The translations under genes and the position numbers were made by a program. Positions 15,045 through 38,274 of a stretch of 39,853 bases of DNA are shown piece after piece (the first letter of the stretch is position 1; the number at the start of each line of letters is the position of its first letter). A model generated the notes under the pieces. It was not told the origin of the DNA and searched no databases. It saw only the letters and a list, made by a program, of their open reading frames with translations. This DNA comes from Roseomonas sp. (GTDB lineage: Bacteria > Pseudomonadota > Alphaproteobacteria > Acetobacterales > Acetobacteraceae). The stretch lies in contig JADCEV010000102.1 in NCBI GenBank assembly GCA_020249865.1, positions 1 through 39,853 on the forward strand, read 5' to 3'.

Positions 15045-15057
15045 TACCACCGGTGGA
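15045..15057. promoter_or_regulatory. LysR-type box between regulator and sulfatase cassette
   Basis: TACCACCGGTGGA fits the T-N11-A LysR box, with a perfect 10-bp dyad CCACCGGTGG at 15047-15056. It lies one base from the LysR start codon and about 90 nt before the preferred start of the divergent gene, so bound protein could repress its own gene and activate the other. Confidence 0.55.
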
Positions 15058-15148
15058 ATTACAGATTGCCGAAAAAGTATTGCACCCACTTGTCGCAAAG
15101 ATGGCAGTCTCTGCAAAGTCGCTCACGCTGCAAGGGTATGGTTTCGCG

Positions 15149-16108: not shown

Positions 16109-16133
16109 TCCAACCAAAGGGAAAACCGATCAC

Positions 16134-17741: not shown

Positions 17742-17751
17742 GCCAAGCCGC

Positions 17752-18899: not shown

Positions 18900-18927
18900 G
18901 TAACCTTCCCACGACCTACGGCGTAAA
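18900..18927 (+). promoter_or_regulatory. SigF-type ECF promoter P1 (sigma factor gene)
   Basis: GTAACC at 18900-18905 (TGTAACC if extended) is separated by 16 nt from CGTAAA at 18922-18927. As I recall it, Caulobacter SigF promoters read GTAACC-N16-CGAA. The predicted transcription start is about 18934, 60 or so nt before the sigma gene. Implies positive autoregulation. Confidence 0.75.
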
Positions 18928-18996
18928 GACCCAGGGCGCTTCTCCAGCCATGCTTGACCCATCCGCACGGGCCGCCCCGCAAGGAGTTGTCTTGGA

Positions 18997-19638
18997 ATGC
19001 CGAGTACCTGCCTGCGAGCCTTTCCCGGGGAATCTTCCCTGATGGATAAGCCGGGCCTTGCCGCCGCCGCGCCGGATGATCGCGATGCGCGCGATCTGCG
19101 CTGGTCGCGCCTGATGGCCGCGGCACAGGCAGGGGATCGGCGCGCCTATGAGGATTTGCTGCGCGAATGCCTGCCACTGCTCCGCCAGATCTGCCGCGCC
19201 AGGCTGCGCGATGCGACCGAAGCCGAGGATGCCGTGCAGGACACGCTGCTGACCATTCATCGTGCGCGGGCAAGCTATGATGCCTCTCGCCCCTTTCGCC
19301 CCTGGCTCGTCGCCATTACCGAAAGGCGGGCGCTTGACCGTATCCGCGCTCGTGGCCGCCGTTCGGGGCGAGAGGCTGCGCTCGATCTGGCAGCCGAACT
19401 CCCGGCACCTGAAGGCAGCGCCGATGCTGCTTTGGATGCCAATCGTGCGGCGGCGAAATTGCGTGATGCCGTGCAGGATTTGCCGCAATCCCAGCGCACC
19501 GCGCTTGGGCTGACCAAGCTGCAGGACCTAACCTTACAGGAAGCGAGTGCGCGTTCCGGCATGAGTATTGGCGCGATCAAGGTCGCGACCCATCGCGCCG
19601 TGCAAACCCTGCGCCGCAGACTGACGGGGCAGGAGTAA
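18997..19638 (+). CDS. sigF: ECF sigma factor (SigF type)
   Basis: A 213-residue extracytoplasmic-function sigma factor. Region 2 runs from LMAAAQAGDRRAYEDLLREC through DAVQDTLLTIHRARASYDA to RPWLVAITERRALDRIRARG; region 4 is LPQSQRTALGLTKLQDLTLQ followed by GMSIGAIKVATHRAVQTLRR. The adjacent NrsF/DUF1109 gene places it with Caulobacter SigF-like sigma factors that respond to heavy-metal or oxidative stress. ATG 18997 has AAGGAG 10 nt upstream; ATG 19042 (MDKPGL) is a possible shorter start. A matching promoter precedes it, and four more copies lie 8-15 kb downstream. The gene symbol is by analogy. Confidence 0.92.
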   Translation: MPSTCLRAFPGESSLMDKPGLAAAAPDDRDARDLRWSRLMAAAQAGDRRAYEDLLRECLPLLRQICRARLRDATEAEDAVQDTLLTIHRARASYDASRPFRPWLVAITERRALDRIRARGRRSGREAALDLAAELPAPEGSADAALDANRAAAKLRDAVQDLPQSQRTALGLTKLQDLTLQEASARSGMSIGAIKVATHRAVQTLRRRLTGQE

Positions 19639-19644
19639 CGCGCC

Positions 19645-20298
19645 ATGCAAAGCGAAGACCTGATCCACCGTTTGGCCAGTGATCTCCGCCCGGTTCGCCC
19701 GGCGCGGCCCCCTGGCGCGGCAACGGCGCTTTGGCTGGGGCTGGCCGCCGCCGTCATCATTGGCGCGGTGCTGTTCTGGGGCCTGCGGCATGATCTGGCG
19801 GAACGCCTCGCCAGCGGGTTTGAGGCACCGCAACTGGTCACGGCACTTGCCACCGGCGTGCTTGCCGCCTTCGCCGCCTTTCAATTGGCCTTGCCGGATC
19901 GCAGCCGGCTTTGGGCCTTGCTGCCGCTGCCCGCTGCCTTGGGCTGGCTTGCCACCATGGGCTGGGGCTGCCTGCAGGATTTTGTGAAAATCGGGCCGGA
20001 GGCCTTGCATATCGGGATCAGCCTGCCTTGTTTCAGCTTCATCCTGGGCCTTGGCTTGCCGCTCACCATGGTCATGCTTTGGCTGTCCCGCCATGGGGCC
20101 TGGTTCAGCCCTGGTCCCGTTGCGGCCTTGGGTGGCCTATCTGCCGCGGCGCTGGCAAGCATTGGCCTCAGCCTCATTCATCATTTGGATGCGGCGCTGA
20201 TGGTGCTGATTTGGCATGGCCTATCGGTTCTGGTGGTGACCGCGATTGCGGCGAAGCTTGGCCCCCGGGTGATGCGGATTTCGTGGTCAGGCGAATGA
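19645..20298 (+). CDS. nrsF: NrsF/DUF1109-family membrane anti-sigma factor
   Basis: A 217-residue inner-membrane protein with six hydrophobic segments (about residues 23-45, 58-80, 88-108, 128-150, 160-182, 188-210) and a short cytoplasmic N-terminus (MQSEDLIHRLASDLRPVRP), the DUF1109 layout. In Caulobacter the family holds SigF at the membrane until stress releases it, through conserved cysteines. Here only two cysteines appear, in GWGCLQDF and LPCFSF, both near membrane segments and good sensor candidates. AGGAG overlaps the sigma stop codon; the ATG lies 6 nt after it, so the pair is co-expressed. Confidence 0.9.
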   Translation: MQSEDLIHRLASDLRPVRPARPPGAATALWLGLAAAVIIGAVLFWGLRHDLAERLASGFEAPQLVTALATGVLAAFAAFQLALPDRSRLWALLPLPAALGWLATMGWGCLQDFVKIGPEALHIGISLPCFSFILGLGLPLTMVMLWLSRHGAWFSPGPVAALGGLSAAALASIGLSLIHHLDAALMVLIWHGLSVLVVTAIAAKLGPRVMRISWSGE

Positions 20299-20360
20299 AA
20301 CCAAATCAGATGCGACCAATTGCTGTGTGTTTCGCTTAAAGGACAGAAAGATTTTCAAGA

Positions 20361-21143
20361 ATGCTCGCCCTTGAAACCATGATCAGGCTATCAGCCTCCA
20401 TCGGTGTGCTCAGCATCATGCTGATCCTGCAGCATGCGTTTCCGCGCCGGGCGCAGCGGCTTGCCTGGCGGCGGTGGCCGAGCAATTTCGGGCTGGTGGT
20501 GATTTCCTCCCTGCTTGTGCGGCTGCTTGTTCCAACTGCGGCGATTGGTGTGGCACTTTATGCCGAAAGCCAGGGCTTCGGCCTGCTGCGCTGGCTTGGC
20601 GTGAATGAGATTATCGGCGGCATCCTGGCGGTGCTGCTGCTGGATATGTTGATCTATTTTCAGCATCGCGTCTTTCACGCCCTGCCTATTCTCTGGCGTC
20701 TGCATCGTGTGCATCATGCGGATACGGAATTGGATGCTTCCTCGGGCCTCCGCTTTCACCCGATTGAGATCATGCTTTCCATGGGCATCAAGATGGCGGC
20801 GGTGGTCGCGCTGGGTGCGCCCGCCGAAGCGGTGCTGGTGTTTGAAGTGCTGTTGAACGCGACTGCGCTTTTCAATCATTCCAATCTTGCGCTACCGCTC
20901 TGGCTTGACCGCGTCTTGCGCTGGGTTCTGGTGACGCCGGATATGCATCGTGTGCATCATTCGGTGGTGCGCGCGGAAACCGACAGCAATTTCGGCTTCT
21001 GCCTTTCCGTTTGGGATCGGATTTTCGGCACGCATATTCCGGAACCCGCCGCCGGGCAGCTTGGCATGGTGATCGGCATTGATGAGTTCCGCGCCGATGA
21101 GGAACAGCGGCTGGATCGGTTATTGACGCAGCCTTTCCGCTGA
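20361..21143 (+). CDS. Fatty acid hydroxylase / sterol desaturase family protein
   Basis: A 260-residue membrane di-iron oxygenase homologue. The histidine clusters are complete: HRVFH, HRVHHAD, HSNLAL and HRVHHS. Four or so hydrophobic segments surround them. The family hydroxylates or desaturates lipids such as fatty acids, sterols or carotenoids; the substrate is not readable. It starts 62 nt after nrsF on the same strand and has no promoter-like motif of its own that I can see, so it may belong to the sigma-factor operon and link lipid change to that stress response. Identification strong, operon membership inferred. Confidence 0.9.
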   Translation: MLALETMIRLSASIGVLSIMLILQHAFPRRAQRLAWRRWPSNFGLVVISSLLVRLLVPTAAIGVALYAESQGFGLLRWLGVNEIIGGILAVLLLDMLIYFQHRVFHALPILWRLHRVHHADTELDASSGLRFHPIEIMLSMGIKMAAVVALGAPAEAVLVFEVLLNATALFNHSNLALPLWLDRVLRWVLVTPDMHRVHHSVVRAETDSNFGFCLSVWDRIFGTHIPEPAAGQLGMVIGIDEFRADEEQRLDRLLTQPFR

Positions 21144-21478
21144 GGGGTGTGATTGGGTGTACAGGGTGCGCTTATTGGGCTGCTCGTTGCTGCGGGTCTA
21201 CGAAAAGAGTCGTTATGTGACCCTTAAATTTTACCAGCAGTATTCCGAATTGTGGACGATGACCTTCTATGGATGACGATGAAAAACCCGCCGGACCTTT
21301 ATTTGCCGTTCGCCGAAACTGCAGGTCCACCCATCGTGGGTGCGGCTGTTCTGTCGTGGAGTAGGCACGATGGGGACGTTCGCTGCGAATATGAATACAG
21401 CTAGAAGAATTTGCCCTGCCTGCTAATAGAGGTCAAATTCAGAGCATTGGATAGGTGGATCACTTTTTCGGAGGGGGA
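21144..21478. other. 335-nt intergenic region upstream of the reverse transcriptase
   Basis: No convincing gene. Composition shifts to A/T-rich from about 21150. A 6-bp hairpin with a 3-nt loop, CACCCATCGTGGGTG, sits at 21328-21342. A 31-codon frame at 21269-21364 has no ribosome site. Several antiphage reverse transcriptases use a structured RNA encoded directly beside the gene, so this stretch is the first place to look for one; nothing in the sequence proves it. Confidence 0.4.
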
Positions 21479-23173: not shown

Positions 23174-23421
23174 TTGCCGTTGCGTAACTGTAGCATTTGG
23201 CGTGTAAGGTGGGTGCCCGACAGAGTCGTGGGGTGCCGATAAACTCCGCTACGGGCGCACTGTGTTGTTGCAAAGGGAAATGGTTTTACCGCGCGTCAGG
23301 ATACCTGAATGTTGCTGATTCGCTCGAACTTTCGTTGGGTGTCTTGTCTCATTAGCACAGCACTTGCTGTATGCGGTATACTGATTGCTATGAGAAAATT
23401 GAACACAAATCGTATCAAATA
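23174..23421. other. 248-nt region after the reverse transcriptase
   Basis: No gene is supported. The stretch keeps the island's low-GC style up to about 23430, where it abruptly meets the GC-rich 3' end of the phosphoesterase gene. A -10-like TATACT is at 23377-23382, followed by a short frame from ATG 23391 (MRKLNTNRIKYYQ) that runs into antisense of the phosphoesterase gene, perhaps the cut-off start of a lost gene. The right edge of the island probably lies here. Confidence 0.35.
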
Positions 23422-24267
23422 CTACCAAACCAATCCCGCCGGCATCAGCTTCTCCCCACGCCGCGCTCGTTCCGCCGGGGGCAAGACATCGCAGGAAGGC
23501 CAGATGCCGCTGCCAAGCGCCGCCGCGTAACCCTCTGGCAAGCCCGCCGCGCGCATGGCCGCTGCCGCCGCCGCATGATCATACTCCAAGGGCAGGATTT
23601 CGACGCTGAGGCCCGTTTCGCCCGGCGTCAGCAGCGCAAACCAAATGCGCGGCGTGCCATCATCGGCGGGCATGCCAATCGCCCCAGCATTGATCCAAAC
23701 CCCCGGCCCCACCTGCCGCGCAAAGGGAATGCCACAATGCCCGGCAATCACGCCATCGCATCCGGTGGCGGCGATTTCCGCCGCCAAATCCGCTTGCGGG
23801 GTGGAGGCGAAAATGAAGCGGCTGATATCGCTTGCCCCGCCATGCAGAACGGCAAGCCGCCGCCCATCCGGCAGAATGACCATCAGCCGCTGCGGCAAGC
23901 CCGCCATCCAGGCGCGATGCGCCGCCGTCACCTGCCGATCAGCATGCGCATACCAAGCGCGGGAGAGCAGATCGCACGCCGTCCCTTCCTCAAAACCGCA
24001 GCCGCAATCAAGCGCGCCTGCCGCCAGATTTTCCTCGCAATTGCCGGCAATCACCCAAATGCCGCTCGTCATGATCAGGTCGCAGCAGGCGGCCGCATCG
24101 GCGCCATAGGCAACAACATCGCCGGTGCAGATCACGCGCCCCGGTGGAATGCCGCGCCGGGTCGCCTCAGTCAGCACTGCGCGCGTTGCCTGTAGGTTTG
24201 AATAGGGGCCGCCAAAGACCAGCAGCGGGCCATCCGCCGCAACTTCCGTCAAAGCTGTCTGAGACAT
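23422..24267 (-). CDS. Calcineurin-like metallophosphoesterase (YfcE/MJ0936 type)
   Basis: A 281-residue metal-dependent phosphoesterase. Metal-binding motifs: GDVVAYGAD (Asp), GNCEE (Asn), VLHGG (His) and AGHCGIPF (His), the order of the Metallophos_2 family; the first motif, normally DxHGN, is degenerate as GGPYSNLQA. The family cleaves phosphodiesters or nucleotides. ATG 24267 (MSQTALTEV) is taken as the start, overlapping the ABC ATPase gene by 19 nt; it is the last gene of the radical SAM-transporter operon. The role may be removing a phosphate group from the imported or modified compound, which is inference only. Confidence 0.85.
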   Translation of the reverse strand: MSQTALTEVAADGPLLVFGGPYSNLQATRAVLTEATRRGIPPGRVICTGDVVAYGADAAACCDLIMTSGIWVIAGNCEENLAAGALDCGCGFEEGTACDLLSRAWYAHADRQVTAAHRAWMAGLPQRLMVILPDGRRLAVLHGGASDISRFIFASTPQADLAAEIAATGCDGVIAGHCGIPFARQVGPGVWINAGAIGMPADDGTPRIWFALLTPGETGLSVEILPLEYDHAAAAAAMRAAGLPEGYAAALGSGIWPSCDVLPPAERARRGEKLMPAGLVW

Positions 24268-24887
24268 CCATCCTCCAGGCAAAGCAATCGGTCGGCAAAG
24301 CGTGCGGCCAGATCATGTTGATGCAGCGATACCACCACCGCGAGGCGATCCCGGCGCGCAAGATCCTGCAATAGGCTCAGCACATCCTCTGCCAGGGCAG
24401 GGTCCAGGCTTGCCACGGGTTCATCCGCCAAAAGAATACGGGATTGCTGGTGCAGCGCGCGGGCAATGGCGACACGCTGCCGTTGCCCGCCGGAAAGCCG
24501 ATCCGCCCGCCGCCCCCCAAGCCCAGCGAGGCCAACCCGCGCCAGGCTTGCCTCTGCCAGGGCCATTTCCGCCCTGGGCCAAAGCCGCAGCGCCGCACGC
24601 CAGAAACCCATGCGGCCAAGCCCGCCGACCAGCACATTATCGCGCGCCGTCAGGCGGCTTGCCAGCGCATGTTGCTGGAACACCAGCGCGGGCTGGCTTT
24701 GCGACTCAAGCTTGCCGGAGGACGGCAAAAGCCCCGCCATGACGCGGAGCAGCGTGGTCTTTCCCGCCCCTGAAGGCCCGATCAGCGCCACCATCTCCCC
24801 CGCCGCCACGCTGAGCGAGATATCCCGCAGCACCACGCGCCCACCAAGCGAAGCGCCAAGCCCCTGCACTGATATCGCCAGCATCAC
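24249..24887 (-). CDS. ABC transporter ATP-binding protein, PhnC-like
   Basis: A 212-residue ATPase that powers the adjacent permease. Walker A is GPSGAGKTTLL, the signature LSGGQRQRVAIARAL, Walker B LLADEP with the catalytic Glu, and the switch His lies in SLHQHDL. It is closest to PhnC/phosphonate and methionine-type importers, but is shorter than PhnC (about 250). The start overlaps the permease stop by 4 nt (ATGA). Substrate could be a phosphonate, phosphite, selenate or another oxyanion-like ligand. Confidence 0.92.
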   Translation of the reverse strand: MMLAISVQGLGASLGGRVVLRDISLSVAAGEMVALIGPSGAGKTTLLRVMAGLLPSSGKLESQSQPALVFQQHALASRLTARDNVLVGGLGRMGFWRAALRLWPRAEMALAEASLARVGLAGLGGRRADRLSGGQRQRVAIARALHQQSRILLADEPVASLDPALAEDVLSLLQDLARRDRLAVVVSLHQHDLAARFADRLLCLEDGCLRQL

Positions 24888-25630
24888 AGCAACCTGGCGC
24901 GCAAGGCTGCGGAAAGCCGGTCAGCCGTCAGGGTCATGGCGACAATCAGCGCCAAAATCGCCAGCACACGGCTGAAATCCAGCAAATCCACCGCGTTTTT
25001 CAGCTCCTGCCCAATGCCGCCGGCGCCCACCAGGCCAAGCACGGTGGAAGCGCGGATATTGAATTCCCAGACATAGAGCGCCGCCGAAGCGGTTTGCGGC
25101 AATGTCTCCGGCAACAGGATCACGGCGGCTGCCTGGGCACGGCCTGCGCCGGCGCTGCGCGCGGCTTCCATGGGCGCGGGATCGGCGGCCTCCAGCGCTT
25201 CCGACCAGAGCTTGCCCAGGCTGCCAGCGGAATGCAGCGCCACGCCAAGCATGCCGGCAAAGGGGCCAAGCCCGACGGCGGCGACAAAAATCAGCGCAAA
25301 GACAAAGCCATCAATGCCGCGCAAGGCATCCAGCAAGGTGCGGATCGGGTGATACAGCGCCGGGTAGGGGTTGGCAGGCTTGGCTGCCATCAGCGCCAGG
25401 GGCAGCGCCAATACCCCCGCCAAAGTGGTGCCCAGGGTCGCGAGGGCAAGCGTTTCCGCCGCGCGCGCCGCAAGGTCTCCAAAGCCCGAAAAATCAGGCG
25501 GGAAGCCGCCCGCAATCCAGCCGGCAAGCCGGGGCAGGCCAGCCCAAAGCCGGCCCAGATCGGGCTGCACCACCCAGATACAGGCCGCCTGAACCGCAAT
25601 GAACCCAATGATCCAGGCAGCGCGCCGCAT
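24884..25630 (-). CDS. ABC transporter permease, PhnE-like
   Basis: A 248-residue inner-membrane permease. Around six hydrophobic helices are seen, and the ATPase-coupling loop is EAARSAGAGRAQAAAVILLP (EAA motif). The region FNIRASTVLGLVGAGGIGQE is the PhnE-family mark. The start codon overlaps the stop codon of the binding-protein gene by one base (25630), so the genes are tightly coupled. The predicted partner pair is the PhnC-like ATPase and the PhnD-like binding protein. Confidence 0.92.
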   Translation of the reverse strand: MRRAAWIIGFIAVQAACIWVVQPDLGRLWAGLPRLAGWIAGGFPPDFSGFGDLAARAAETLALATLGTTLAGVLALPLALMAAKPANPYPALYHPIRTLLDALRGIDGFVFALIFVAAVGLGPFAGMLGVALHSAGSLGKLWSEALEAADPAPMEAARSAGAGRAQAAAVILLPETLPQTASAALYVWEFNIRASTVLGLVGAGGIGQELKNAVDLLDFSRVLAILALIVAMTLTADRLSAALRARLL

Positions 25631-26481
25631 CAGGCAGTGGAAAGCCGCCCGAGTGCGCGGCCTGCGGCTTCGATCGGCGCATAGGTCTCCGGCGTTGCCG
25701 CCACCCAGCCGGTATAATTGAGCGGCATGATCTGACCGGCCTCGGCTTCCGTGATGGCCAGTGCTGCCTGGGTGATGGCGGATTTGAGGCCAGGATCAAA
25801 ATCGCGCCGCGCGGCCAGGGCATCATTCGGCAAGGGATCGCTGCGCCAGACCACCTTCACCTGATCCTGCCTGACACGCCCGGCGGCGATCATGGCGGCC
25901 AGGTTGCGGTCGAAATCCGTGGCAAGGTCAACCTGGCCCGAAGCGACGGAAATCACATTCGCCGCATGGCTTGCCCCATCGCGGTAGCGAAAGAAGCTGC
26001 GCGGGTTTATCCCGCGCGTCATGAACCAATGATGCGGGATCAGCCAGCCGCTGGTGGAACCGGCATCGGCGAAGGAAATGCTGCGCCCCTGCACATCTTC
26101 CGGAAAGCGGGTTATCGGCAGATCAGGCCGCGCGATGATGATGGCGTGATAGGTGGGCCGGCCCTGATAGAGCACGGTCGCCACAGCTTCCGCCCCGGCG
26201 CGGGCGCGCGCCAGCACATAGCCCCAAGGCCCCATCCAGGCGCAATCCGCCTGCCCGCTGCCCAGCGCCACCGCAATGCCGGCCCAATCGGTGGTGACGG
26301 CCAATTCATGCGGGCGGCCAAGCGCCTGGGCCAAATGGGCGAAAAACGGCGCAAAGGCGCGGCGCGTATCGCCTGCTGTTGGCTGAAAAGGGCCAACCGC
26401 AAAGCGCAAGGGGGTCGTTTGCGCCAGGGCAGGCGCGGCAAGTACTGCCAGGGGCAGCGCCATCAGGGAACGGCGGCGCAT
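25630..26481 (-). CDS. Periplasmic substrate-binding protein, PhnD-like
   Basis: A 283-residue periplasmic binding protein. MRRRSLMALPLAVLAAPALA is a signal peptide. The domain has family features LRFAVGPFQPTAGDTRRAFA, FADAGSTSGWLIPHHWFM (the STSG ligand loop) and VASGQVDLATDFDRN. PhnD-like proteins bind phosphonate, phosphite, or related small anions; the STSG loop is retained, but the exact ligand cannot be told. ATG 26481 is chosen as it begins the signal peptide, 8 nt after the radical SAM stop codon; a GTG/ATG further upstream would overlap that gene. Confidence 0.9.
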   Translation of the reverse strand: MRRRSLMALPLAVLAAPALAQTTPLRFAVGPFQPTAGDTRRAFAPFFAHLAQALGRPHELAVTTDWAGIAVALGSGQADCAWMGPWGYVLARARAGAEAVATVLYQGRPTYHAIIIARPDLPITRFPEDVQGRSISFADAGSTSGWLIPHHWFMTRGINPRSFFRYRDGASHAANVISVASGQVDLATDFDRNLAAMIAAGRVRQDQVKVVWRSDPLPNDALAARRDFDPGLKSAITQAALAITEAEAGQIMPLNYTGWVAATPETYAPIEAAGRALGRLSTA

Positions 26482-26489
26482 GGAAGCGA

Positions 26490-27455
26490 TTACCGAGAAC
26501 AGGCCGCACCGCCGAGCACGCAAAACCGCGCGCAATGCGGGTGGTTCAGGGTAACCGGCTGCGCTGCCTCGGCCAGGGTGGCGCCCAGTTCAAAGCGCTC
26601 ATCATAAGGCAGCAGCGTGCAGGCGATCACGGCAGGACGTTCCGCCCCCTTGCGCTTCACCACCATGCGGGCGGAAGCGCACATGACGCTATCGGGCGAT
26701 TTATGCAGAATGCCCCAGCAGGCTTCGGTGATTTCCGGCACCTCCGCCCTTTCATCCATTTCCGGGAATAACATCAGCGCCACGGGGTCTGCCGCATCCA
26801 CCGGAATGCCGTGTTCGGCGAAAAGCGCGGCATAGCCTTGACGCATGGCGGCTTCCTGGCCCTGACCGAAGCCAAGCCTGCCGGCGACGTGTACGGTGAA
26901 GCCCTCACGCACCAGCCAGCCAAGCCCTTCCAGGGTTTTGGCAAAGCTGCCCGCGCCGCGTTCCATGTCGTGAAAGGTTTTGGCGTAGTGATCCAGGCTC
27001 ACGCGCAGGATCAGGCGATCCGTGCCGAAGCGGTCCCGCAGCCGCAACAGCCCATCGGCATAGCGCCGCATGGGCTGCATGGCATTGGTCAGCACCAGGG
27101 CGGAAAGGCCAGGCCGGGCGAGTGTATCCGCCAGCATGTCAAGCAAGCCTGGGTTCATGAAAGGCTCGCCACCCGTGAAGCCGATCTGTTCCAGCGGCTC
27201 GCCAAGGGAAGCGGCCTCATTCAGATAGGCCGCGACTTCCTGAGGCGAGATATAGACAAGCGCATCATTGCGCGGGCTGCTTTCGATATAGCAATTGGCG
27301 CAGGTGATGTTGCAGAGCGTCCCGGTATTGATCCAAAGCGTCTGCAGGCCCTTGAGCGCGACGGTGGCGCGGCGTTCGCCCTTGGCGGTCACGAAAGGGT
27401 CCTGGAACTTGGCCAGGCTGCGTGGCGGAAGGCCGATGACGGACAAGAGATGCAT
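26490..27455 (-). CDS. Radical SAM protein with cysteine-rich C-terminus
   Basis: A 321-residue radical S-adenosylmethionine enzyme. The [4Fe-4S] motif is Cys48-x3-Cys52-x2-Cys55 (TLCNITCANCYIESSPRND), followed by the SAM-binding GFTGGEPFMNPG. Additional cysteines near the C-terminus (CWGIL, MCASARM, ACTLLPYD, HPHCARFCVLGGAACSR) suggest one or more auxiliary clusters, in SPASM-like fashion. The reaction is unknown. Homologues with this ending are, as I recall, common in alphaproteobacterial genomes near TIGR04282-type transferases. ATG 27455 (MHLLSVIGLP) is preferred; a SigF-type promoter lies 30 nt upstream. First gene of the operon with the PhnDEC-like importer and phosphoesterase. Confidence 0.9.
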   Translation of the reverse strand: MHLLSVIGLPPRSLAKFQDPFVTAKGERRATVALKGLQTLWINTGTLCNITCANCYIESSPRNDALVYISPQEVAAYLNEAASLGEPLEQIGFTGGEPFMNPGLLDMLADTLARPGLSALVLTNAMQPMRRYADGLLRLRDRFGTDRLILRVSLDHYAKTFHDMERGAGSFAKTLEGLGWLVREGFTVHVAGRLGFGQGQEAAMRQGYAALFAEHGIPVDAADPVALMLFPEMDERAEVPEITEACWGILHKSPDSVMCASARMVVKRKGAERPAVIACTLLPYDERFELGATLAEAAQPVTLNHPHCARFCVLGGAACSR

Positions 27456-27484
27456 CCTTTCGAGGATAGGCGCTGCGCCCACGG

Positions 27485-27512
27485 ACTACGCCCTAAACTG
27501 CCTTCAGGTTAC
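27485..27512 (-). promoter_or_regulatory. SigF-type ECF promoter P2 (radical SAM operon)
   Basis: On the minus strand GTAACC (27512-27507), 16 nt, then CGTAGT (27490-27485). The predicted start of transcription is about 27478, 23 nt before the radical SAM ATG. The -35 box contains the TAA stop of the upstream glycosyltransferase gene. Confidence 0.65.
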
Positions 27513-28246
27513 GGCTCAAGCCTTGAATTCGCTTCGGTGGTTTGCCGGGTGGGGCGCGCCAGCGCTTCCGCCGCGATCACCCAAAGGATTTTCCAGCCCG
27601 CCTTGATCGTGCCCATCAGGGTTCCCGATATCTTGGACTGGCCAATGCGGCGCCGATAGCCCACCGGCACTTCCCGCACGCGAAGCCCAAGGCGCGCGGC
27701 GCGCACCTGCATTTCAACGGTCCAGCCCCAGGTTTCATCGCGCATCTGAAGCCGCTCCAGCGCTGCCCGGCGGATCACGCGAAACGGGCCAAGGTCCGTA
27801 TAGCCTATGCCCCAAATCAGGCGGATCAGCCGGCAGGCCAGCGCATTGCCAAAGCGCTGCTGCGGCGTCAGCGCGCCGGGTTCGACATCAAGGCTGCGCG
27901 CGCCAATCACCAGCTCTGCCCCGTCCTCGATGAGAGGCGCCAGCAGCCGCGGCAAATCCTCGGGCCTGTCAGAGGCATCGGCATCCATGAACAGGACCGT
28001 ATCCACCGCGGGGGATAGCGCGGCGATGCCGGCAAGGCAGGCCCGGCCATAGCCGCGGCGGGGTTCGGAGACCACGCGCGCCCCCATGCCTGCGGCAATT
28101 TCCGGCGTGCCATCGGTGCTGGCGGTATCCACCACAATCACCTCAGCGACTTTGGGCAGGATGGCGTTGAGAACCTTGGGCAGCGCCGCGGCCTCATTCC
28201 TTGTGGGCATGATGACGCCGATGATGGGCGGGGCTATGGGTTTCAT
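27509..28246 (-). CDS. Family 2 glycosyltransferase (DPG/dolichol-phosphate sugar type)
   Basis: A 245-residue GT2 enzyme, presumably moving a hexose from a nucleotide sugar to a polyprenyl phosphate. GVIMPTRNEAAALPKVLNAI, VIVVDTASTDGTPEIAAG and the catalytic FMDADASDRPEDLP (DxD) are typical, as are TDLGPFRVIRR and RRRIGQSKISGT. It has no transmembrane tail. The ATG overlaps the mannosyltransferase-like stop by 4 nt (ATGA). The two would form a donor-plus-transferase pair working at the membrane. Confidence 0.92.
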   Translation of the reverse strand: MKPIAPPIIGVIMPTRNEAAALPKVLNAILPKVAEVIVVDTASTDGTPEIAAGMGARVVSEPRRGYGRACLAGIAALSPAVDTVLFMDADASDRPEDLPRLLAPLIEDGAELVIGARSLDVEPGALTPQQRFGNALACRLIRLIWGIGYTDLGPFRVIRRAALERLQMRDETWGWTVEMQVRAARLGLRVREVPVGYRRRIGQSKISGTLMGTIKAGWKILWVIAAEALARPTRQTTEANSRLEP

Positions 28247-29586
28247 GGCTTGGCGCGCCGCCTGATCAGGTTTTGGCCGAGCATCATCACCACCCCCGCA
28301 AGATGAATGGCCGCGATGCCTTGCGCAAAAATCGGGCGCAGCACGGGGCCGGTGAAGGCAAAGAACAAATAGTAGATCGGCAATAGCACCGCCGGCAGCA
28401 GCAGGGCCCGACAGCCCAAGACCGCGGCAAAGGGCAGAAACCACACCGCATACCAGGGGAATTGCGCCGGTGAGAGGTAGAAGGTCGCCGCCGCAATCAC
28501 CAGCACACCGCGCAAAAGCGCGCCGCCATCTGTGGGCGCGCGCCAAGCCATGGCGAGGGCAATTGCGGCGCCCGTGAGGCCCAGCAGCGGGCGCAGGATT
28601 GCGCCGGTATCTTCGCCGAGGATCGCCTCGGCCCAGGCCATCGGCGCGTTATTGACGGACCAGAAGCGCGCATAGGCATTCAGCCCGGCATCTGGCGCAG
28701 TGATGGTCGCCAGCAATGGCGCCAGAACAAGCAATGTTGTCGCACCAAAAGCGATCAAGGCGCCAAGCCAGGCGCTGCGTGGCAGCCAACGCCCGAAAAG
28801 CGGCGCCAGCAGTACAGGCCAAAGCTTCACGCCGGCGGCGAGGCCGAGCAAAACCCCAACGGCAATGCCCTTGCCGCGCAGCGTCAACAGCACCGCACCC
28901 AGCAGCAGCGGCGGCAAAAGCGCATCCACATGCGCGGCATTGGTCAACACCAGGGGCAGCAGCGGGCAACACCACCAGATCGCCACACGCATGATCGGAA
29001 GCCCCGCTTGGCGTAGCACAGCCGCCATCAGCGGCAAGGTGACAAGCTCCGCGCCCAGGATCACAAGCCGAAGGCCCGTGACATCCCAAGGCAGGATCCA
29101 ATGCGCCAGCAGAAAGGCGACCTGGGCTGTGGCGGGGTAGATGCTGCGGAGCTCGGTAAAGGGAAGCCTATCCAGCAGCGCTGCCCCCGCCGTGCCAAGC
29201 TCAGGCGGCAGGCCCGCCGCCGGGGGTGCAGCCCAGGGTGAGATCCCATGCGCGGCCAGCGCCCCATCCCAAAGATAGCGCAGCGCATCCGTATCCAGCA
29301 TGGGTAGCGTGCTGAACCAGGGCAGGCGGATCGCAAGGCCAAAGGCGAAAACCCCAAGCAGCACCAGCGGGCGCATGGGCAGGCGTTCAAGCGCGCCAAG
29401 CGCGGCAAACCAGGCGGCGCCGCCAAGCACGGCAAGCGCGACGTAGAGGAATATCGGCAGCGGCGGCGCAGTGGCCTCATCAGCCAGGGCGGGCGCAAGG
29501 GCCAGCATCGCCAATTGCGTCAGCGCGATGATCGCCGCTGAAATGGCCAATGGCGGGACCTTGCGCGGCGCCAATTCACCGCCCAT
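28243..29586 (-). CDS. GT-C polyprenyl-phosphate glycosyltransferase (DUF2029/mannosyltransferase type)
   Basis: A 447-residue integral membrane protein with about ten or more hydrophobic helices. The first periplasmic loop has the acidic MLDTDALRYLWDGAL catalytic motif (DxD), followed by SIYPATAQ, typical of GT-C fold mannosyltransferases that use polyprenyl-phosphate sugars in the periplasm. The acceptor is not known. It starts 5 bp from the GTAACC of the rhodanese promoter in the opposite direction. The GT2 gene downstream overlaps by 4 nt. No SigF-like motif of its own was seen. Confidence 0.9.
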   Translation of the reverse strand: MGGELAPRKVPPLAISAAIIALTQLAMLALAPALADEATAPPLPIFLYVALAVLGGAAWFAALGALERLPMRPLVLLGVFAFGLAIRLPWFSTLPMLDTDALRYLWDGALAAHGISPWAAPPAAGLPPELGTAGAALLDRLPFTELRSIYPATAQVAFLLAHWILPWDVTGLRLVILGAELVTLPLMAAVLRQAGLPIMRVAIWWCCPLLPLVLTNAAHVDALLPPLLLGAVLLTLRGKGIAVGVLLGLAAGVKLWPVLLAPLFGRWLPRSAWLGALIAFGATTLLVLAPLLATITAPDAGLNAYARFWSVNNAPMAWAEAILGEDTGAILRPLLGLTGAAIALAMAWRAPTDGGALLRGVLVIAAATFYLSPAQFPWYAVWFLPFAAVLGCRALLLPAVLLPIYYLFFAFTGPVLRPIFAQGIAAIHLAGVVMMLGQNLIRRRAKP

Positions 29587-29590
29587 GCGC

Positions 29591-29618
29591 GTAACCTGAA
29601 GCCTGCCTGCGGCGAAAA
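29591..29618 (+). promoter_or_regulatory. SigF-type ECF promoter P3 (rhodanese gene)
   Basis: GTAACC (29591-29596), 16 nt, CGAAAA (29613-29618): the closest fit in the window to the Caulobacter SigF consensus. The predicted start is about 29625; the gene's ATG is at 29651. It lies in the 64-nt gap between two divergent genes. Confidence 0.75.
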
Positions 29619-29650
29619 CATTGAGTCGCCATCAAAGCCGGGATATCGCA

Positions 29651-30232
29651 ATGGAAATGCCCAAACCACTGCTGCCAAATCGTCGCCTTGTTGTGGGCAT
29701 GGTGGGCGCCACCATCCTGGGCGGCGCCGGCATGGCGATGGCATGGCCTTGGCGTCGCGGCCTGCCCGATCCCACCGATCCGCGCACCACGCTGCAAGCG
29801 GTTGAAGATGCCATTGCGCGACTGCTGCCGGAACCGGAGATCACAACAACGGCCTTGGCGGCACGGCTGGCTGCGGGTGAACGCATCATATTGTTCGACA
29901 CGCGCGAGCCTGATGAATACGCGCAAAGCCACCTTCCGGGCGCGCTGCGCGTTGCACCAGATGCCTCTGCCAGCGCGATATTGGCCCAATACCGCGCGCT
30001 GATGGCTGATGCGACGGTGGTTGTTTATTGCTCGGTTGGGTGGCGTTCGGGTCTGGTGGTGCAGGCCATCCGGCGCGCTGCGAATGATGCGCCGGCCAAG
30101 GCGGTCTTCAATCTGCGCGGCGGCATCTTCCGCTGGCATGCCGAAGGGCGCCCCTTGGAATTCGGGCCCGGCGCTTCGGGCGTGCATCCCTTCAGCCGTG
30201 ATTGGGGACAATTGCTCAAGCGCCTTGGTTAG
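29651..30232 (+). CDS. Membrane-anchored rhodanese-like protein
   Basis: A 193-residue protein with one N-terminal membrane helix (RRLVVGMVGATILGGAGMAM), predicted to place a single rhodanese domain on the periplasmic side. The active-site loop is VVYCSVGWRSG with Cys127, the persulfide-forming residue; FDTREPDEYAQSHLPGA and FNLRGGIFRWHAEGRPL are family marks. It probably moves sulfane sulfur or acts on a thiol or oxyanion. ATG 29651 is chosen; a TTG at 29621 lies before the predicted transcript start. Only about 64 nt separate it from the divergent mannosyltransferase-like gene. Confidence 0.9.
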   Translation: MEMPKPLLPNRRLVVGMVGATILGGAGMAMAWPWRRGLPDPTDPRTTLQAVEDAIARLLPEPEITTTALAARLAAGERIILFDTREPDEYAQSHLPGALRVAPDASASAILAQYRALMADATVVVYCSVGWRSGLVVQAIRRAANDAPAKAVFNLRGGIFRWHAEGRPLEFGPGASGVHPFSRDWGQLLKRLG

Positions 30233-30286
30233 CGGGGCGGCATGAAAAATTTCAGGTGATGGCGCGATGCGCGCGTGGCGCATGGA

Positions 30287-31105
30287 TCAGGTGCCCGCCG
30301 GCGCATCGTTCAAGGCCCAATCATAGGTATCCTCGGCAATGCTGGTGCGACCGGCGAGGCGCTGGCGGAGCGGCGGGGCGGCGAATTGCCGGAGATGCGC
30401 GATCACCCCTGCCTCATCGCCGCCGAAATCCTCACGAAACCAGGTATAGATTGAGGATATGCGCAAGCGCCCATCCGGCAGAACGGTCACGCCGCGCGGA
30501 TGATTGACATAGGCGGCGGCAGCGGCATCCAGCTCGGCTTCCAACGTCGCGGCACGCCAGACCCTTGGCCAGAGATTGGGGCAGCCGATGGAGGCGCAAT
30601 TGACAGCGTAATGCACGCGCGGATCGCGAAAGAAGGGCCGCATCGTGCCGTGTTCGATATCATCAAGCGACATGCGCTTGCCCTCCACCGTGACAAGCCG
30701 CGTCCGCCAAGGCCCGATATAGCCTTTGGGGTCGAAGGGCACACCTGATGAACGGATGTCGCGAACGGAGCGCACCGGGTAGCGTTCCAGCACGACCTTG
30801 AGCGTCAGCGCATTATAGAGATTGGCCCAATAGGCGAAGGCTTCAGGCCGCGCCATGCGGGAAGGGCTGCGCGTTGCGGCCTCAGAAATCCAGGCATCAA
30901 GCGCGCGCATATCCTCGGCTGAAGCCTTCAGCGCGGCGTAGCGCACGCGCGTCACACCATCAGGTGGTTCAATGACATAACGTGCCAGCAAGGCACCAAG
31001 GCTCGCGTCAGGATTGGCAGCGGCGCGGCGCAATGGCAGCGCGGCGATGGCAAGCGCGCCTAGGGCGGCTGGAGCAAGCGCGCCAAAGGCGCGACGTGTT
31101 GGCAT
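30287..31105 (-). CDS. DUF547 family exported protein
   Basis: A 272-residue protein of the DUF547 family, function unknown, often found next to redox genes and thought to be enzymatic. MPTRRAFGALAPAALGALAI is a signal-like N-terminus with an adjacent-arginine motif (TRRAFG) that might be Tat-type. The domain has RYAALKASAEDMRALDAWIS, EAFAYWANLYNALTLKVVLE, HYAVNCASIGCPNL and WFREDFGG. AGGAGG is 7 nt before the ATG. The end of the merA-like/TVP38/DUF547 operon: it follows the TVP38 gene by 10 nt. Confidence 0.88.
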   Translation of the reverse strand: MPTRRAFGALAPAALGALAIAALPLRRAAANPDASLGALLARYVIEPPDGVTRVRYAALKASAEDMRALDAWISEAATRSPSRMARPEAFAYWANLYNALTLKVVLERYPVRSVRDIRSSGVPFDPKGYIGPWRTRLVTVEGKRMSLDDIEHGTMRPFFRDPRVHYAVNCASIGCPNLWPRVWRAATLEAELDAAAAAYVNHPRGVTVLPDGRLRISSIYTWFREDFGGDEAGVIAHLRQFAAPPLRQRLAGRTSIAEDTYDWALNDAPAGT

Positions 31106-31115
31106 GATGAGCCTC

Positions 31116-31826
31116 CTAGGATTTCGCAAACCGCGCCTTGAGCGGAATGGCAGCGAGTGACAGCACGGCAAGCCCGATCAGGGCGCCGAGTATTTCAGGC
31201 GTCAGCACGGAACCGACATCAAAATCGCCGCCCTGCGCCAGCACATCGCCAAGCCCCGCGCCGGCCAGGCTGAACACCGCCGTGCCGGGCAGAATGCCAA
31301 TCGCCGTGGTGATGACGTAGATGGGAAGGCGCACACCCACAAAGGCCGGCACCAGATTGACCAGAAAGAAGGGGAATAGGGGCACAAGACGCAGCACCAG
31401 CAGATAGGAAGCGGCATTGCGGCGAATACCCTCACCCAGGGCACGCGCCTTGGGGCCCATGCGATCCAGCGCATCCGCGCCGAAAATGCGTTGGGCGAAC
31501 AGGAAAATCAGCGTGGCACCAATGGTGGCACCAAAGACCGTCAGCGCCGTACCCAGAATGGCGCCAAACAGAAACCCGCCGGACAGCGTAATGAAGACAG
31601 CGCCGGGCACTGAGAAAGCGACCGCCACCACATACAACAAAACATAGGCGCCGGCAGCGAGCAGCAGATTGGCAGCAACGAAAGCCGCCAGCGCTTCGCG
31701 ATGCCGCGCCAAAGTCTCCAGAGAAAGCTGATCCGAAAGCCCGGTGGCCCGCAGCATGATCAGGATGGCGATAACACCAAGCGCCAACCAAAGCCGCCGG
31801 TCGCGCAGAAGGTTCTTGAGCTTCAT
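31116..31826 (-). CDS. TVP38/TMEM64 (DedA/VTT-fold) membrane protein
   Basis: A 236-residue integral membrane protein of the SNARE-associated/VTT family. Hydrophobic helices include LALGVIAILIMLRATGL, AFVAANLLLAAGAYVLLYVV and LIGLAVLSLAAIPL. The re-entrant motif is FSVPGAVFITLSGGFLFGAI, with FPFFLVNLVPAFVGVRLPIY in the second half. Proposed roles are lipid or thiol-ion transport; in bacteria the specific substrate is unknown. ATG 31826 (MKLKNLLRDRR) is preferred over a longer frame that overlaps the oxidoreductase. It follows the oxidoreductase gene by 13 nt. Confidence 0.9.
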   Translation of the reverse strand: MKLKNLLRDRRLWLALGVIAILIMLRATGLSDQLSLETLARHREALAAFVAANLLLAAGAYVLLYVVAVAFSVPGAVFITLSGGFLFGAILGTALTVFGATIGATLIFLFAQRIFGADALDRMGPKARALGEGIRRNAASYLLVLRLVPLFPFFLVNLVPAFVGVRLPIYVITTAIGILPGTAVFSLAGAGLGDVLAQGGDFDVGSVLTPEILGALIGLAVLSLAAIPLKARFAKS

Positions 31827-31839
31827 GATGTCTCTGCCT

Positions 31840-33318
31840 TCACGGCAACCAGCGCTGCAGCAGCCCAACCAGGCGCCGCGTGCGCGCGCTGAAAAGGCTT
31901 GGCGTGTAAAAACTGCCAGCGGCCCGCTTGGAAATCTCCGACATGGTCGGGTAGGGTGCGATCATTGAAGCAATGGCGCCGATTTTCATTTTCTGCTGAA
32001 TGGCTAGGCCCCAAACGCCGATCATCTCCCCAGCGCGGGGCGCCAGAATCGTGGCCCCCAGAATACGCCCGCGCGGCCCAAGGATGATTTTTGCAAGGCC
32101 TTCGGTTGCGTGTTCCGCCTGGGCGCGGTCATTGCCGGCGAGCGGTTGCAGCAGGGTGGAGATGTCATGCCCAGCCTCCCGCGCGGCTGCCTCCGTCAGG
32201 CCAACATGCGCCAATTCCGGATCGGCATAGGTCACCCAGGGCAGCGCGGCATAATCAACCTTGGCCGGCAGGCCAAACAGCGCATTCCGGATGACAATGC
32301 CCGCGTGATAGCCGGCGACATGGGTGAATTGTGGGCCACCCGAGACATCGCCTATCGCAAAGACACACCGATTGCTGCTGCGCAGGCGTTGGTCAACCGT
32401 GATGCCGCGCGGCGTCACTTCAATGCCGGCGGCTTCAAGCCCAAGCCCGGCGGTATTGGGTTTGCGCCCGGCCGCCACCAGCAGATGCGATCCTTGCACC
32501 AGCACGGTGCCCGCATTGCCGCGCAGTTCCAGTTCAACACCTGCGCCAGCGTTGCGCGCCGCCACTACCTCAATACCCTCATGCAGGGTGATGCCTTCGC
32601 GGACCAGGGTATCGCGCAGGATTGTCACCGCCTCTGGCTCATCACGCGGTAGGATGGCAGCGCGTTCAACCAAGGTGACGCGGGCGCCAAGGCGGCGAAA
32701 GGCTTGCGCCATTTCAATCCCGATCGGTCCCCCGCCCAGGACCAGCAAATGGTGCGGTCTTTCTTTCAAACCGAAGATGGTTTCATTGGTGAGGTATGGG
32801 ATATCGCCAAGGCCAGGCACGGGCGGAATGGCGGCGGAAGACCCCGTTGCCACGACAAACCGGCGCGCCCGGATGCGGTGGCTGCCGGCCTGGACTTCAG
32901 CCGGCCCTGTGAAGCTTGCTGCCGCCTGAATGACGGTGACGCCAAGGCCTTCAAAGCGTTCCACACTGTCATGCGGGGCGATGGCGGCGATGACGCCCTG
33001 CACATGCGCATGAACCTTGGCGAAATCCACGACGGGTTCGTGGCTGGCGATGCCGAAAGGATCGGCATGGCGCTGGGCATGGGCGGCATGCGCCGCGGCC
33101 AGCAGCGCCTTGGACGGAACGCAGCCGGTATTGAGGCAATCGCCGCCCATCAGGTGCTTTTCGATCAGCACAACGGAAGCGCCCATCTGGACGGCACCGG
33201 CTGCCACAGAAAGCCCGCCTGACCCCGCACCGATAATGCAAAGATCCGTATGCAGAACACCATCGCGCAGCACCGGGCGGCGTGCGGCAGTTCCAGAAGA
33301 CGGCGATGCGGCAGTCAC
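31840..33318 (-). CDS. FAD-dependent disulfide oxidoreductase (mercuric-reductase-like)
   Basis: A 492-residue pyridine-nucleotide-disulfide oxidoreductase. FAD binding is seen in LCIIGAGSGGLSVAAGA; the redox-active pair is in GGDCLNTGCVPSKAL; the NAD(P)H-binding fold is VLGGGPIGIEMAQAF; and the dimerisation domain ends in AVMSEISK-like sequence (YPTMSEISKRAAGSFY). It lacks the N-terminal HMA domain and the C-terminal Cys pair needed for Hg(II), so it should not be called MerA. GTG 33318 is preferred: GGAAAGG lies 9 nt upstream and the start follows promoter P5. First gene of the operon with TVP38 and DUF547 genes. Confidence 0.9.
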   Translation of the reverse strand: MTAASPSSGTAARRPVLRDGVLHTDLCIIGAGSGGLSVAAGAVQMGASVVLIEKHLMGGDCLNTGCVPSKALLAAAHAAHAQRHADPFGIASHEPVVDFAKVHAHVQGVIAAIAPHDSVERFEGLGVTVIQAAASFTGPAEVQAGSHRIRARRFVVATGSSAAIPPVPGLGDIPYLTNETIFGLKERPHHLLVLGGGPIGIEMAQAFRRLGARVTLVERAAILPRDEPEAVTILRDTLVREGITLHEGIEVVAARNAGAGVELELRGNAGTVLVQGSHLLVAAGRKPNTAGLGLEAAGIEVTPRGITVDQRLRSSNRCVFAIGDVSGGPQFTHVAGYHAGIVIRNALFGLPAKVDYAALPWVTYADPELAHVGLTEAAAREAGHDISTLLQPLAGNDRAQAEHATEGLAKIILGPRGRILGATILAPRAGEMIGVWGLAIQQKMKIGAIASMIAPYPTMSEISKRAAGSFYTPSLFSARTRRLVGLLQRWLP

Positions 33319-33346
33319 GCGATTGAACCTTTCCGAGTTGGAACGC

Positions 33347-33374
33347 CCTTCGCTGGGGGGTGCGAAAAGGTTAC
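33347..33374 (-). promoter_or_regulatory. SigF-type ECF promoter P5 (oxidoreductase operon)
   Basis: Minus strand GTAACC (33374-33369), 16 nt, CGAAGG (33352-33347). Transcription would start near 33340, 22 nt before the GTG start of the oxidoreductase. It fills the gap directly after the TIGR04282-type gene. Confidence 0.65.
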
Positions 33375-33376
33375 GT

Positions 33377-34123
33377 TCAGCCCTGGCCTGGTTGGTGGGG
33401 TGGCGATGTTTCCGCCGCCGTCCAAGCCGCCAGCAAGGCGCGCGTATACCGCGCTGGACCACCTTGCACCACCGCATCAGGGAAGGGTGGCTGCCCGCCA
33501 CATTCAGCCTTCAGGCGGTGAAAATCTTGGGCCTCATCCACATCATACCATTCATGCAGCACATGCACCGGCAGGCCCATTTGTGCTGCACGCGCGCAGG
33601 TTTCGGTAAAGACTGCCGCTGTACTCCAGGCCATATTGCGGAATAGTGCCGGATGAAAGCCTTTGAGCCCAATGAGGTAATAGCCACCATCCAGCGAGGG
33701 GCCGAGGACGACGCGATCACCATCGGCGCGCAGCGCAGTGATGGCTTCTTCGATCAGAATAGCAGGCAGGCTTGGGCTGTCGCTATTCATGAAAATAACG
33801 CTGTCATGCCCTGCCTGGAGCAGCGCCTTCAGACTTGCTTCCAGCACCTGCCCGACATTATCGGCCTCACGCGGGATGAGTTGCCAATCAGGGGTGAGGA
33901 GTTCGCGCAGCGCCGCTTCAGTGCCGGCAGGGCTGAACAGCGCATAGCATTGTCGGGGGAGCGTAGCAGGCAAAGCCGCCAAGGTTTCTGCAACATCACG
34001 GATGAAACAGGCGGATAGCTGGGCCGTTCGAACCTGCCCAAGCAATGGCCAAAGCCGCGACTTGCCGTGCCCGATGGCGGGGGTTTTGCAGACAAGCGCG
34101 ATGGCAATCTTTGGCGTCATCAT
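33377..34123 (-). CDS. TIGR04282-type glycosyltransferase (DUF2064, rSAM/arsenosugar-associated)
   Basis: A 248-residue nucleotidyl/glycosyl-transferase-like protein. The core VKTP-like start is here ALVCKTPAIGHGKSRLWPLL, followed by FMNSDSPSLPAILIEEAI (metal site) and the highly characteristic VLGPSLDGGYYLIGLKGFHP, then WSTAAVFTETCARAAQMG and LHEWYDVDEAQDFHRL. NCBI links the TIGR04282 family to arsenosugar or rSAM/selenodomain clusters. No arsM gene is in the window, so a role in arsenosugars is not shown here. Start at 34123 (ATG ATG; 34120 is equally possible). A SigF-type promoter lies 25 nt upstream. Confidence 0.9.
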   Translation of the reverse strand: MMTPKIAIALVCKTPAIGHGKSRLWPLLGQVRTAQLSACFIRDVAETLAALPATLPRQCYALFSPAGTEAALRELLTPDWQLIPREADNVGQVLEASLKALLQAGHDSVIFMNSDSPSLPAILIEEAITALRADGDRVVLGPSLDGGYYLIGLKGFHPALFRNMAWSTAAVFTETCARAAQMGLPVHVLHEWYDVDEAQDFHRLKAECGGQPPFPDAVVQGGPARYTRALLAAWTAAETSPPHQPGQG

Positions 34124-34465
34124 TCCGGGAGGATCAGTAAGATCTGCTTTACGTGGCGTTGAGCGTATAGGTTACACACGGCGACGTCGGAAAAACTATG
34201 GCGCCGTTTTTGATAGTTTTGACCCAAGGAGCCGGATTCCGAATACTTCAGGCAGTGATAAAGCCTAGTTTGGCCTATACACCTTCCAGTTGTGACCAAG
34301 TAGCGGACCGGAGTTAACATTACCCATATTGAACTCAGGGCACCAGTTGGTAGGCGCTATCCAGATGGCCTTTCCGATATCCGTCAGCGGTCGCCATCAT
34401 TCCACCATCACAACCGGTGTTCTATGATAGGCCCTATCCCACCATTCTCTTCACCACCTGCAAAT
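34124..34465. other. 342-nt gap between the glycosyltransferase and prophage tail genes
   Basis: It holds the P4 promoter at 34148-34175 and otherwise nothing I can name. The stretch from about 34180 is A/T-rich with stop codons in all frames and no tRNA, integrase or clear repeat. It is the boundary between the chromosomal cluster and the prophage and may contain an attachment site. Confidence 0.5.
34148..34175 (-). promoter_or_regulatory. SigF-type ECF promoter P4 (TIGR04282 gene)
   Basis: Minus strand GTAACC (34175-34170; TGTAACC extended), 16 nt, CGTAAA (34153-34148). Both boxes, including the preceding TG, equal those of P1. Transcription would start near 34141, about 18 nt before the ATG. 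Confidence 0.75.
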
Positions 34466-36268: not shown

Positions 36269-36278
36269 GGCAGCGCCC

Positions 36279-38273: not shown

Positions 38274-38274
38274 A

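Follow-up and report, generated by a model that had tools for sequence, protein, structure and literature searches.

Which genes answer to the extracytoplasmic function (ECF) sigma factor encoded on contig JADCEV010000102.1 of a Roseomonas sp. (Acetobacteraceae; assembly GCA_020249865.1), and does the radical SAM gene cluster beside it belong among them? The sigma factor (18997..19638, + strand; PF04542 59.7 bits, PF08281 32.9 bits) is SigF/ECF16-like, with regions 2 and 4 only, and is followed by NrsF (DUF1109), a membrane anti-sigma factor (19645..20298, +; PF06532 99.6 bits) of a C109/C129/H179 variant. From an analysis of the whole 39,853-nucleotide (nt) stretch (the window), we consider it highly probable that five sites of the form GTAACC-N16-CG(T/A)A are promoters of this ECF16-type SigF and that they make the locus a self-contained regulon. 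So far as sequence and comparison go, the regulon is real, judging by the sites themselves, the confinement of the strict consensus to the locus, and the conservation of the sites upstream of orthologues in which the spacers have diverged.

A pattern search of both strands of the 39.9-kb window returned GTAACC-N16-CG exactly five times, at 18900-18923 (+), 27489-27512 (-), 29591-29614 (+), 33351-33374 (-) and 34152-34175 (-), bearing out an earlier reading of the DNA by eye (the sequence-only reading) that had placed five such sites there. In 100 dinucleotide shuffles of the window the pattern occurred 0.51 times on average and twice at most, and five were reached in none. The hexamer GTAACC alone, put at about eleven by that reading, is present exactly 11 times against 3.78 expected from the shuffles. 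All five sites share the -10 extension CG(T/A)A behind a spacer of 16 nt, and their sequence is that of the Caulobacter SigF motif, GTAACC-N16-CGAA (PMC3511200), and agrees with the consensus given for ECF16 in PMC8315932 and PMC3420878 (published work is cited throughout from parts of the papers concerned).

With the extension included, the predicted SigF-type promoters lie at 18900..18925 (+; GTAACC-N16-CGTA, predicted autoregulation) upstream of sigF-nrsF, at 27487..27512 (-) upstream of an operon for a radical SAM protein, a PhnDEC-like transporter and a phosphoesterase, at 29591..29616 (+) upstream of a rhodanese gene, at 33349..33374 (-) upstream of a merA-like/VTT/DUF547 operon, and at 34150..34175 (-) upstream of a TIGR04282/DUF2064 gene. 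A gene start follows on the same strand in every case, in agreement with the claim that each site stands ahead of a transcription unit. Four of the five are intergenic, provided that merA starts at 33318, and the fifth, at 27487-27512, overlaps the stop codon of a GT2 glycosyltransferase gene that ends at 27509. As listed, the radical SAM and merA open reading frames (ORFs) would have start codons that precede the expected transcription start; inspection gave better starts at ATG 27455 (after GAAAGG) and GTG 33318 (after GGAAAGG), respectively. The rhodanese site fell within an antisense ORF in the output of a simple gene caller, which we discount because it lies in the stretch that separates two divergent genes, the GT87-like one and that for rhodanese.

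The host genome (G000; 3.65 Mb in 154 contigs) contains 43 copies of GTAACC-N16-CG and eight of the strict form GTAACC-N16-CGWA, five of which are in the window. If strict sites were scattered at random, at least five of eight would fall there with a binomial P of about 8e-9. The other three (at L020, L231 and L235; L and G numbers are our labels for loci and genomes) are all within ORFs by the simple gene caller. The sequence-only reading had named equal frequency at random coding positions across the genome as the outcome that would speak against it, and this is not the distribution observed. The reversed pattern is commoner than the motif in this genome, with 34 (CGWA) and 526 (CG) copies, and the motif is therefore rare for its base make-up. 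Allowing one mismatch gave 34 places: the five exact matches, all of them from the window, and 29 inexact ones scattered across the genome, of which one falls in the window's reverse transcriptase gene (21933-21958).

Conservation was assessed in 80 loci (1.32 Mb) from a scan with the radical SAM protein, which by their record titles come mostly from Acetobacteraceae and other Alphaproteobacteria; nine are near copies of the window, so the independence of the sites matters. Orthologues were located by tblastn, and a site was counted if it lay at most 250 nt upstream of, or at most 60 nt into, the matched start. When the spacer of GTAACC-Nk-CGWA was varied from 8 to 27 nt, 64 sites were found at k = 16 and between 0 and 3 at each of the 19 other lengths. 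These 64 sites comprise 31 distinct spacers, and outside the search pattern they tend to share C at -1 (25 of 31) and T at +6 (20 of 31). We could assign 61 of the 64 to the starts of sigF, radical SAM, merA-like, rhodanese, TIGR04282 or DUF547 orthologues. The motif is thus conserved upstream of orthologues in related genomes, a check that the sequence-only reading had itself proposed, and the comparison supports its grouping of the radical SAM/PhnDEC-like operon, the rhodanese gene, the disulfide oxidoreductase operon and the TIGR04282 gene into one local regulon.

Among testable orthologue starts, a site is present at 15 of 16 for sigF, 21 of 77 for the radical SAM gene, 13 of 24 for merA-like genes, 6 of 9 for rhodanese (all six in near relatives), 5 of 12 for TIGR04282 (four in near relatives; the site is present in L216 and L222 too) and 1 of 17 for DUF547. 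No sites were found at the orthologue starts of nrsF (0/15), phnC (0/11), phnD (0/17), phnE (0/17), VTT (0/20), phosphoesterase (0/21), GT87 (0/7), GT2 (0/9), fatty-acid hydroxylase (0/11), HAD (0/3), sulfatase (0/5), formylglycine-generating enzyme (0/4) or reverse transcriptase (0/1) genes. The three unassigned sites lie 261 nt ahead of the locus's own sigF ORF (L089), about 800 nt upstream of the radical SAM gene (L081), and within that gene on the opposite strand (L105).

The site ahead of the radical SAM gene persists where the flanks examined lack the rest of the cluster (L038, L040, L043-L045, L047, L055, L058 and L059, the last a 5-kb contig), and in L089, a Caulobacter metagenome-assembled genome (MAG) with the Cys179 kind of NrsF discussed below, there is one site each at sigF, at the radical SAM gene and at a DUF547-VTT-merA run. 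Where the genome has NrsF, 18 of 42 loci have a strict site in the 300 nt upstream of the radical SAM gene, versus 3 of 37 where none was detected (Fisher P 0.0007); once the nine near copies are removed, the counts are 10 of 33 versus 3 of 37 (P 0.029). In these counts L052, L065 and L092, with less than 300 nt upstream of the gene, are scored as having no site, L072 is left out for want of a genome, and L039 and L042 come from one genome.

Several observations weigh against the proposed regulon. Strict radical SAM sites occur without a detected NrsF in L038 (an isolate draft), L059 (a 2.8-Mb MAG) and L078 (a 5.7-Mb MAG), and 24 of the 42 NrsF-positive loci have no radical SAM site. Among these 24, six (L048-L051, L054 and L056) have merA-VTT-DUF547-radical SAM on one strand with a site ahead of merA, L041 has an N17 version of the site, and L052 has almost no upstream sequence, leaving 16 others. 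Nor are strict sites rare in every genome: they number from 0 to 16 per genome over 59 genomes, with gene context read for a minority, and many of those in G010, G017 or G029 look fortuitous. Eight of the 59 genomes, including two from the window's genus, have none. Support for the rhodanese and TIGR04282 sites comes mostly from close relatives.

The alternative that survives best accepts that SigF binds the sites and takes the locus for a patchwork of unrelated genes under a shared regulator, with no single pathway. Such a patchwork is a serious possibility, though we do not favor it: the rhodanese, TIGR04282, glycosyltransferase and hydroxylase genes are variably present between genera and site-led genes elsewhere include a thioredoxin/DsbD pair and a 152-amino-acid (aa) protein, but the merA-like, VTT, DUF547, PhnD/PhnE and phosphoesterase genes stay near the radical SAM gene in 10 to 17 of the 71 loci that are not near copies of the window, some without a detected NrsF, and in L048 the merA-VTT-DUF547-radical SAM genes form a same-strand run behind one site. 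It is improbable that the sites, though real, are read by a different ECF sigma factor whose specificity resembles that of SigF, which would then be one among several. ECF16 pairs are suspected of cross-talk in Bradyrhizobium (PMC3420878), and the three site-bearing loci without detected NrsF would fit, but a search found only a single NrsF match in the host genome, the one in the window, and a site stands ahead of sigF itself, as it does in nearly all sigF orthologues. Chance, or a codon or composition effect, draws on the excess of GTAACC in the window and deserves virtually no credence against a spacing peak at exactly 16 nt, 31 different spacers and five of eight genomic strict sites standing ahead of units here, so that the spacing spectrum and the site-to-gene map lead us to reject it.

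Regulation by the adjacent SigF, the reading we prefer, does not extend to everything that had been attached to it. The sequence-only reading linked the sigma factor to a "radical SAM/glycosyltransferase cluster", and the radical SAM half of that description stands. The membrane protein (GT87-like by eye, with no family match) and GT2 glycosyltransferase encoded together at 27509..29586 (-) have no SigF-type site, the only candidate upstream of the GT87-like gene having two mismatches and an N17 spacer; with no site at any of the 16 testable GT87 or GT2 orthologue starts, the glycosyltransferase part was too wide. The only sugar-related gene with a site is the one for the TIGR04282/DUF2064 nucleotidyl/glycosyltransferase-like protein (33377..34123, -; 152.4 bits, above the TIGR04282 cut-off of 134).

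The system is of a known kind, ECF16 SigF-NrsF, with its targets and sensor as variant features. It has an ECF sigma factor with regions 2 and 4 only, a predicted autoregulatory GTAACC-N16-CGAA-like promoter, and an adjoining DUF1109/NrsF protein for which a moderate AlphaFold2 model gives six long helices, in keeping with six membrane helices. Caulobacter crescentus SigF-NrsF likewise combines a sigma-DUF1109 pair, a promoter ahead of sigF, GTAACC-N16-CGAA boxes and a small regulon, but its targets, DUF2282/DUF692/DUF2063/DoxX operons and YedY, are unlike those here, and the second conserved cysteine of its NrsF is a histidine in ours (PMC3511200). The DUF692 (MNIO) family was not found in the host genome, and no GTAAC-N16..18-CGW site is present in any of the four YedY-family (PF00174) stretches examined there. 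Bradyrhizobium EcfF-OsrA is an ECF16 pair with a GTAAC-type promoter, and its regulon recalls the thioredoxin/DsbD pair behind a SigF-type site in the relative G006, but OsrA requires for its peroxide response a C179 that the window NrsF lacks (PMC3420878). Brucella BcrS-AbcS, another ECF16 pair, shares the promoter consensus and responds to hypochlorous acid; it differs in its target, bcrXQP (a Met-rich peptide and MsrPQ), and in an anti-sigma factor with both C129 and C179 (PMC8315932). Sinorhizobium RpoE7-EcfR7, also ECF16, has TGTAAC...GCGAA promoters at rpoE7 and a DUF692 operon but conserves both cysteines and has other targets (PMC6180224).

Some relatives carry site-led genes beyond those seen in the window. 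In L215 (G006), at 2135-3256, a SigF-type site precedes a pair of genes for a thioredoxin-like and a DsbD-transmembrane protein, and in L221 (9937-10452), L223 (9775-10295) and L224 (9476-9998) one precedes a gene for a membrane-like protein of 152-153 aa, whose L221 copy was scanned and has no Pfam match.

The name SigF-NrsF given to the pair holds in part. Its Pfam score is clear, but against the NCBIfam equivalog NF042994 (NrsF) the window protein scores 23 bits, far below the cut-off of 300, and of the two conserved NrsF cysteines (C129 and C179 in OsrA numbering) only C129 is present, position 179 being His, so that the sensor cysteine of the literature is missing. Bradyrhizobium OsrA depends on C129 to bind sigma and on C179 to respond to peroxide (PMC3420878), and substitution of C131 and C181 in Caulobacter NrsF disturbs basal repression (PMC3511200). 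The window NrsF can still work like SigF-NrsF with a different sensing residue.

We compared 118 NrsF domains, namely that of the window, 40 from radical SAM loci and 77 from an even draw over the window's class; L171 and L181 were left out for lack of a 150-residue domain, and weaker or partial locus-less matches were included in part. C129 is present in all 118, whereas position 179 is His in 69, Cys in 41 and another residue in 8. C109 occurs with His179 in 64 and with Asn179 in one, Cys179 without C109 in 41, neither cysteine in 12, and C109 and C179 together in none (65 with C109 versus 41 with C179). The even draw gives 29 with C109, 37 with C179 and 11 with neither, so about half (40 of 77) have no cysteine at 179. 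Both classes occur in some single genomes, such as G107 and G467. Upstream of nrsF the spacing of the GTAAC motif peaks in both cysteine classes: GTAAC-N17-CGW is found in 30 of 64 members of the window's cysteine class (0-3 for other spacers), and in the Cys179 class in 20 of 41, with N16 in 7 of 41. We found no mention of two NrsF cysteine classes in the parts of openly accessible papers where it was looked for.

Three points count against a sensor reading of these classes. On a quick tree built without the two columns, with weak deep branches, the classes differ by one change, so that the division appears to be a single old split between subfamilies; we reject the idea that C109 and C179 covary through repeated evolution. 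The AlphaFold2 model is of moderate quality (predicted local distance difference test score, pLDDT, 72; 15 sequences). In it C109 lies within the final third of helix 95-116, C129 close to where helix 127-147 begins, and His179 immediately past helix 156-178, so that all three would face the periplasm if the N terminus is cytoplasmic; a structure search with NrsF gave nothing usable, with no E below 1. Finally, Sinorhizobium RpoE7 is described as not induced by H2O2, Cd or chromate (PMC6180224), and the inducer thus cannot be assumed.

In the mechanism we propose, NrsF would inhibit SigF by holding it at the membrane until envelope stress releases it, whereupon SigF would bind the five sites and transcribe five units: sigF-nrsF (perhaps with the fatty-acid hydroxylase gene), radical SAM-PhnDEC-like transporter-phosphoesterase, rhodanese, merA-like-VTT-DUF547 and the TIGR04282 gene. 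The signal, possibly an oxidant or a metal that reacts with thiols, would act on a pair of periplasm-facing cysteines, Cys109 and Cys129, along with His179, an arrangement that would replace the Cys179 used by Bradyrhizobium OsrA. The products may take up a small phosphite-type oxyanion and counter thiol or envelope damage. The possible third gene of the sigF operon encodes a fatty-acid-hydroxylase family protein (20361..21143, +; PF04116 110.4 bits) and has no site of its own. Copper is one signal for the DUF1109-type CarR of Myxococcus, and plasmalogen lipids with singlet oxygen are another (PMC9304148), which makes a lipid link for the hydroxylase worth a thought. A fatty-acid hydroxylase gene also lies near radical SAM/merA/TIGR04282 genes in L070 and L075, from genomes without a detected NrsF.

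The operon behind the site at 27487..27512 runs on the minus strand. The radical SAM protein (26490..27455, start re-placed) has six further conserved cysteines, candidates for the auxiliary-cluster cysteines of BlsE/SPASM radical SAM enzymes, and may be SPASM/twitch-like; a fold search named only the broad SPASM/MoaA/viperin-like group, and literature on Rv1681 and on ArsS with glycosyltransferases yielded no function. It is followed by a periplasmic binding protein ("PhnD"; 25630..26535), a PhnE-type permease (24884..25630; TIGR01097 242.9 bits, above the cut-off of 216.7), a PhnC-like ATPase (24249..24887; TIGR02315 204.6 bits, below the cut-off of 266.1) and, at the end, a calcineurin-like phosphoesterase (23422..24282; PF12850 34.1 bits). 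By score (262 bits), identity (116 of 257 residues, 45%) and pocket residues, "PhnD" resembles HtxB (PMC5700983, PMC6629693), keeping W52, W68, P71, Y97, T129, S130, R178 and D206. It differs in N128 to Ser and F158 to His, the STS-H of phosphite binders, and in M176 to Phe. Of the pocket W52, Y97, N128-T129-S130, F158, R178 and D206 it thus departs at N128S and F158H, and the other named positions are kept in it and in 16 aligned orthologues. Compared by description only, it fits the published, uncharacterised "hybrid" HtxB/PtxB group (PMC5700983, PMC6629693). The locus also recalls the NCBIfam ArsS/arsenosugar gene set, with a TIGR04282 gene above cut-off and a radical SAM protein weakly similar to ArsS, but differs from it in that the radical SAM protein scores 54.1 bits against 300 for TIGR04167 and the GT2 protein 43 against 182 for TIGR04283.

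Among the remaining targets, the rhodanese (29651..30232, +; PF00581 65.1 bits) has a hydrophobic N terminus and a single cysteine, Cys127. The MerA/lipoamide-dehydrogenase-like flavin adenine dinucleotide (FAD) disulfide oxidoreductase (31840..33318, -, from the re-placed GTG) has the redox pair C61/C66 and scores 381.5 bits against the 454 set for mercuric reductase MerA (TIGR02053). A C-terminal cysteine pair is a feature of mercuric reductase MerA, and this protein has none, its only cysteines being at 27, 61, 66 and 318. The rest of its operon encodes a VTT-domain (TVP38-like) membrane protein (31116..31868, -; PF09335 61.9 bits) and a DUF547 protein with a signal-like N terminus by eye (30287..31171, -; PF04784 80.4 bits).

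Between the hydroxylase and phosphoesterase genes lies a reverse transcriptase gene (21455-23173; PADLOC Drt6 match, 515 bits). L031 shares the Drt6-type reverse transcriptase, and L032 has at the same place a PDC-M11A/B candidate defence pair, found by scanning, with the same ORFs in L034 by eye. The two flanking genes are only about 40-100 nt apart in L033, L035, L037, L046 and L052, and the gap resembles a small insertion spot for defence genes. Formylglycine-generating-enzyme, sulfatase and HAD genes (15053-18726), which lie upstream of sigF in the same orientation, have no SigF-type sites, and the ORFs at 34466-39853 are phage-tail or gene-transfer-agent-like by eye.

For the family, we tentatively suggest that there is a second class of NrsF, in which the periplasmic sensor cysteine has shifted from the loop between transmembrane helices TM5 and TM6 (C179) to the outer tip of TM3 (C109), close to C129, which is invariant, and to His179, giving a different redox or metal switch. 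In Acetobacteraceae this switch might drive a dedicated pathway for a phosphite-like oxyanion, be it phosphite, sulfite, selenite or arsenite, that joins a SPASM-like radical SAM enzyme to a hybrid HtxB/PtxB importer and a MerA-like flavoenzyme. The cysteine at the base of the published sensing model is missing in 40 of the 77 NrsF of the class draw, and two natural classes make ECF16 sensing testable. An orphan cluster of a radical SAM protein, a hybrid HtxB/PtxB-like transporter, a MerA-like flavoenzyme, rhodanese, DUF547 and VTT proteins gains a testable regulator, and with it a route to its inducer and function.

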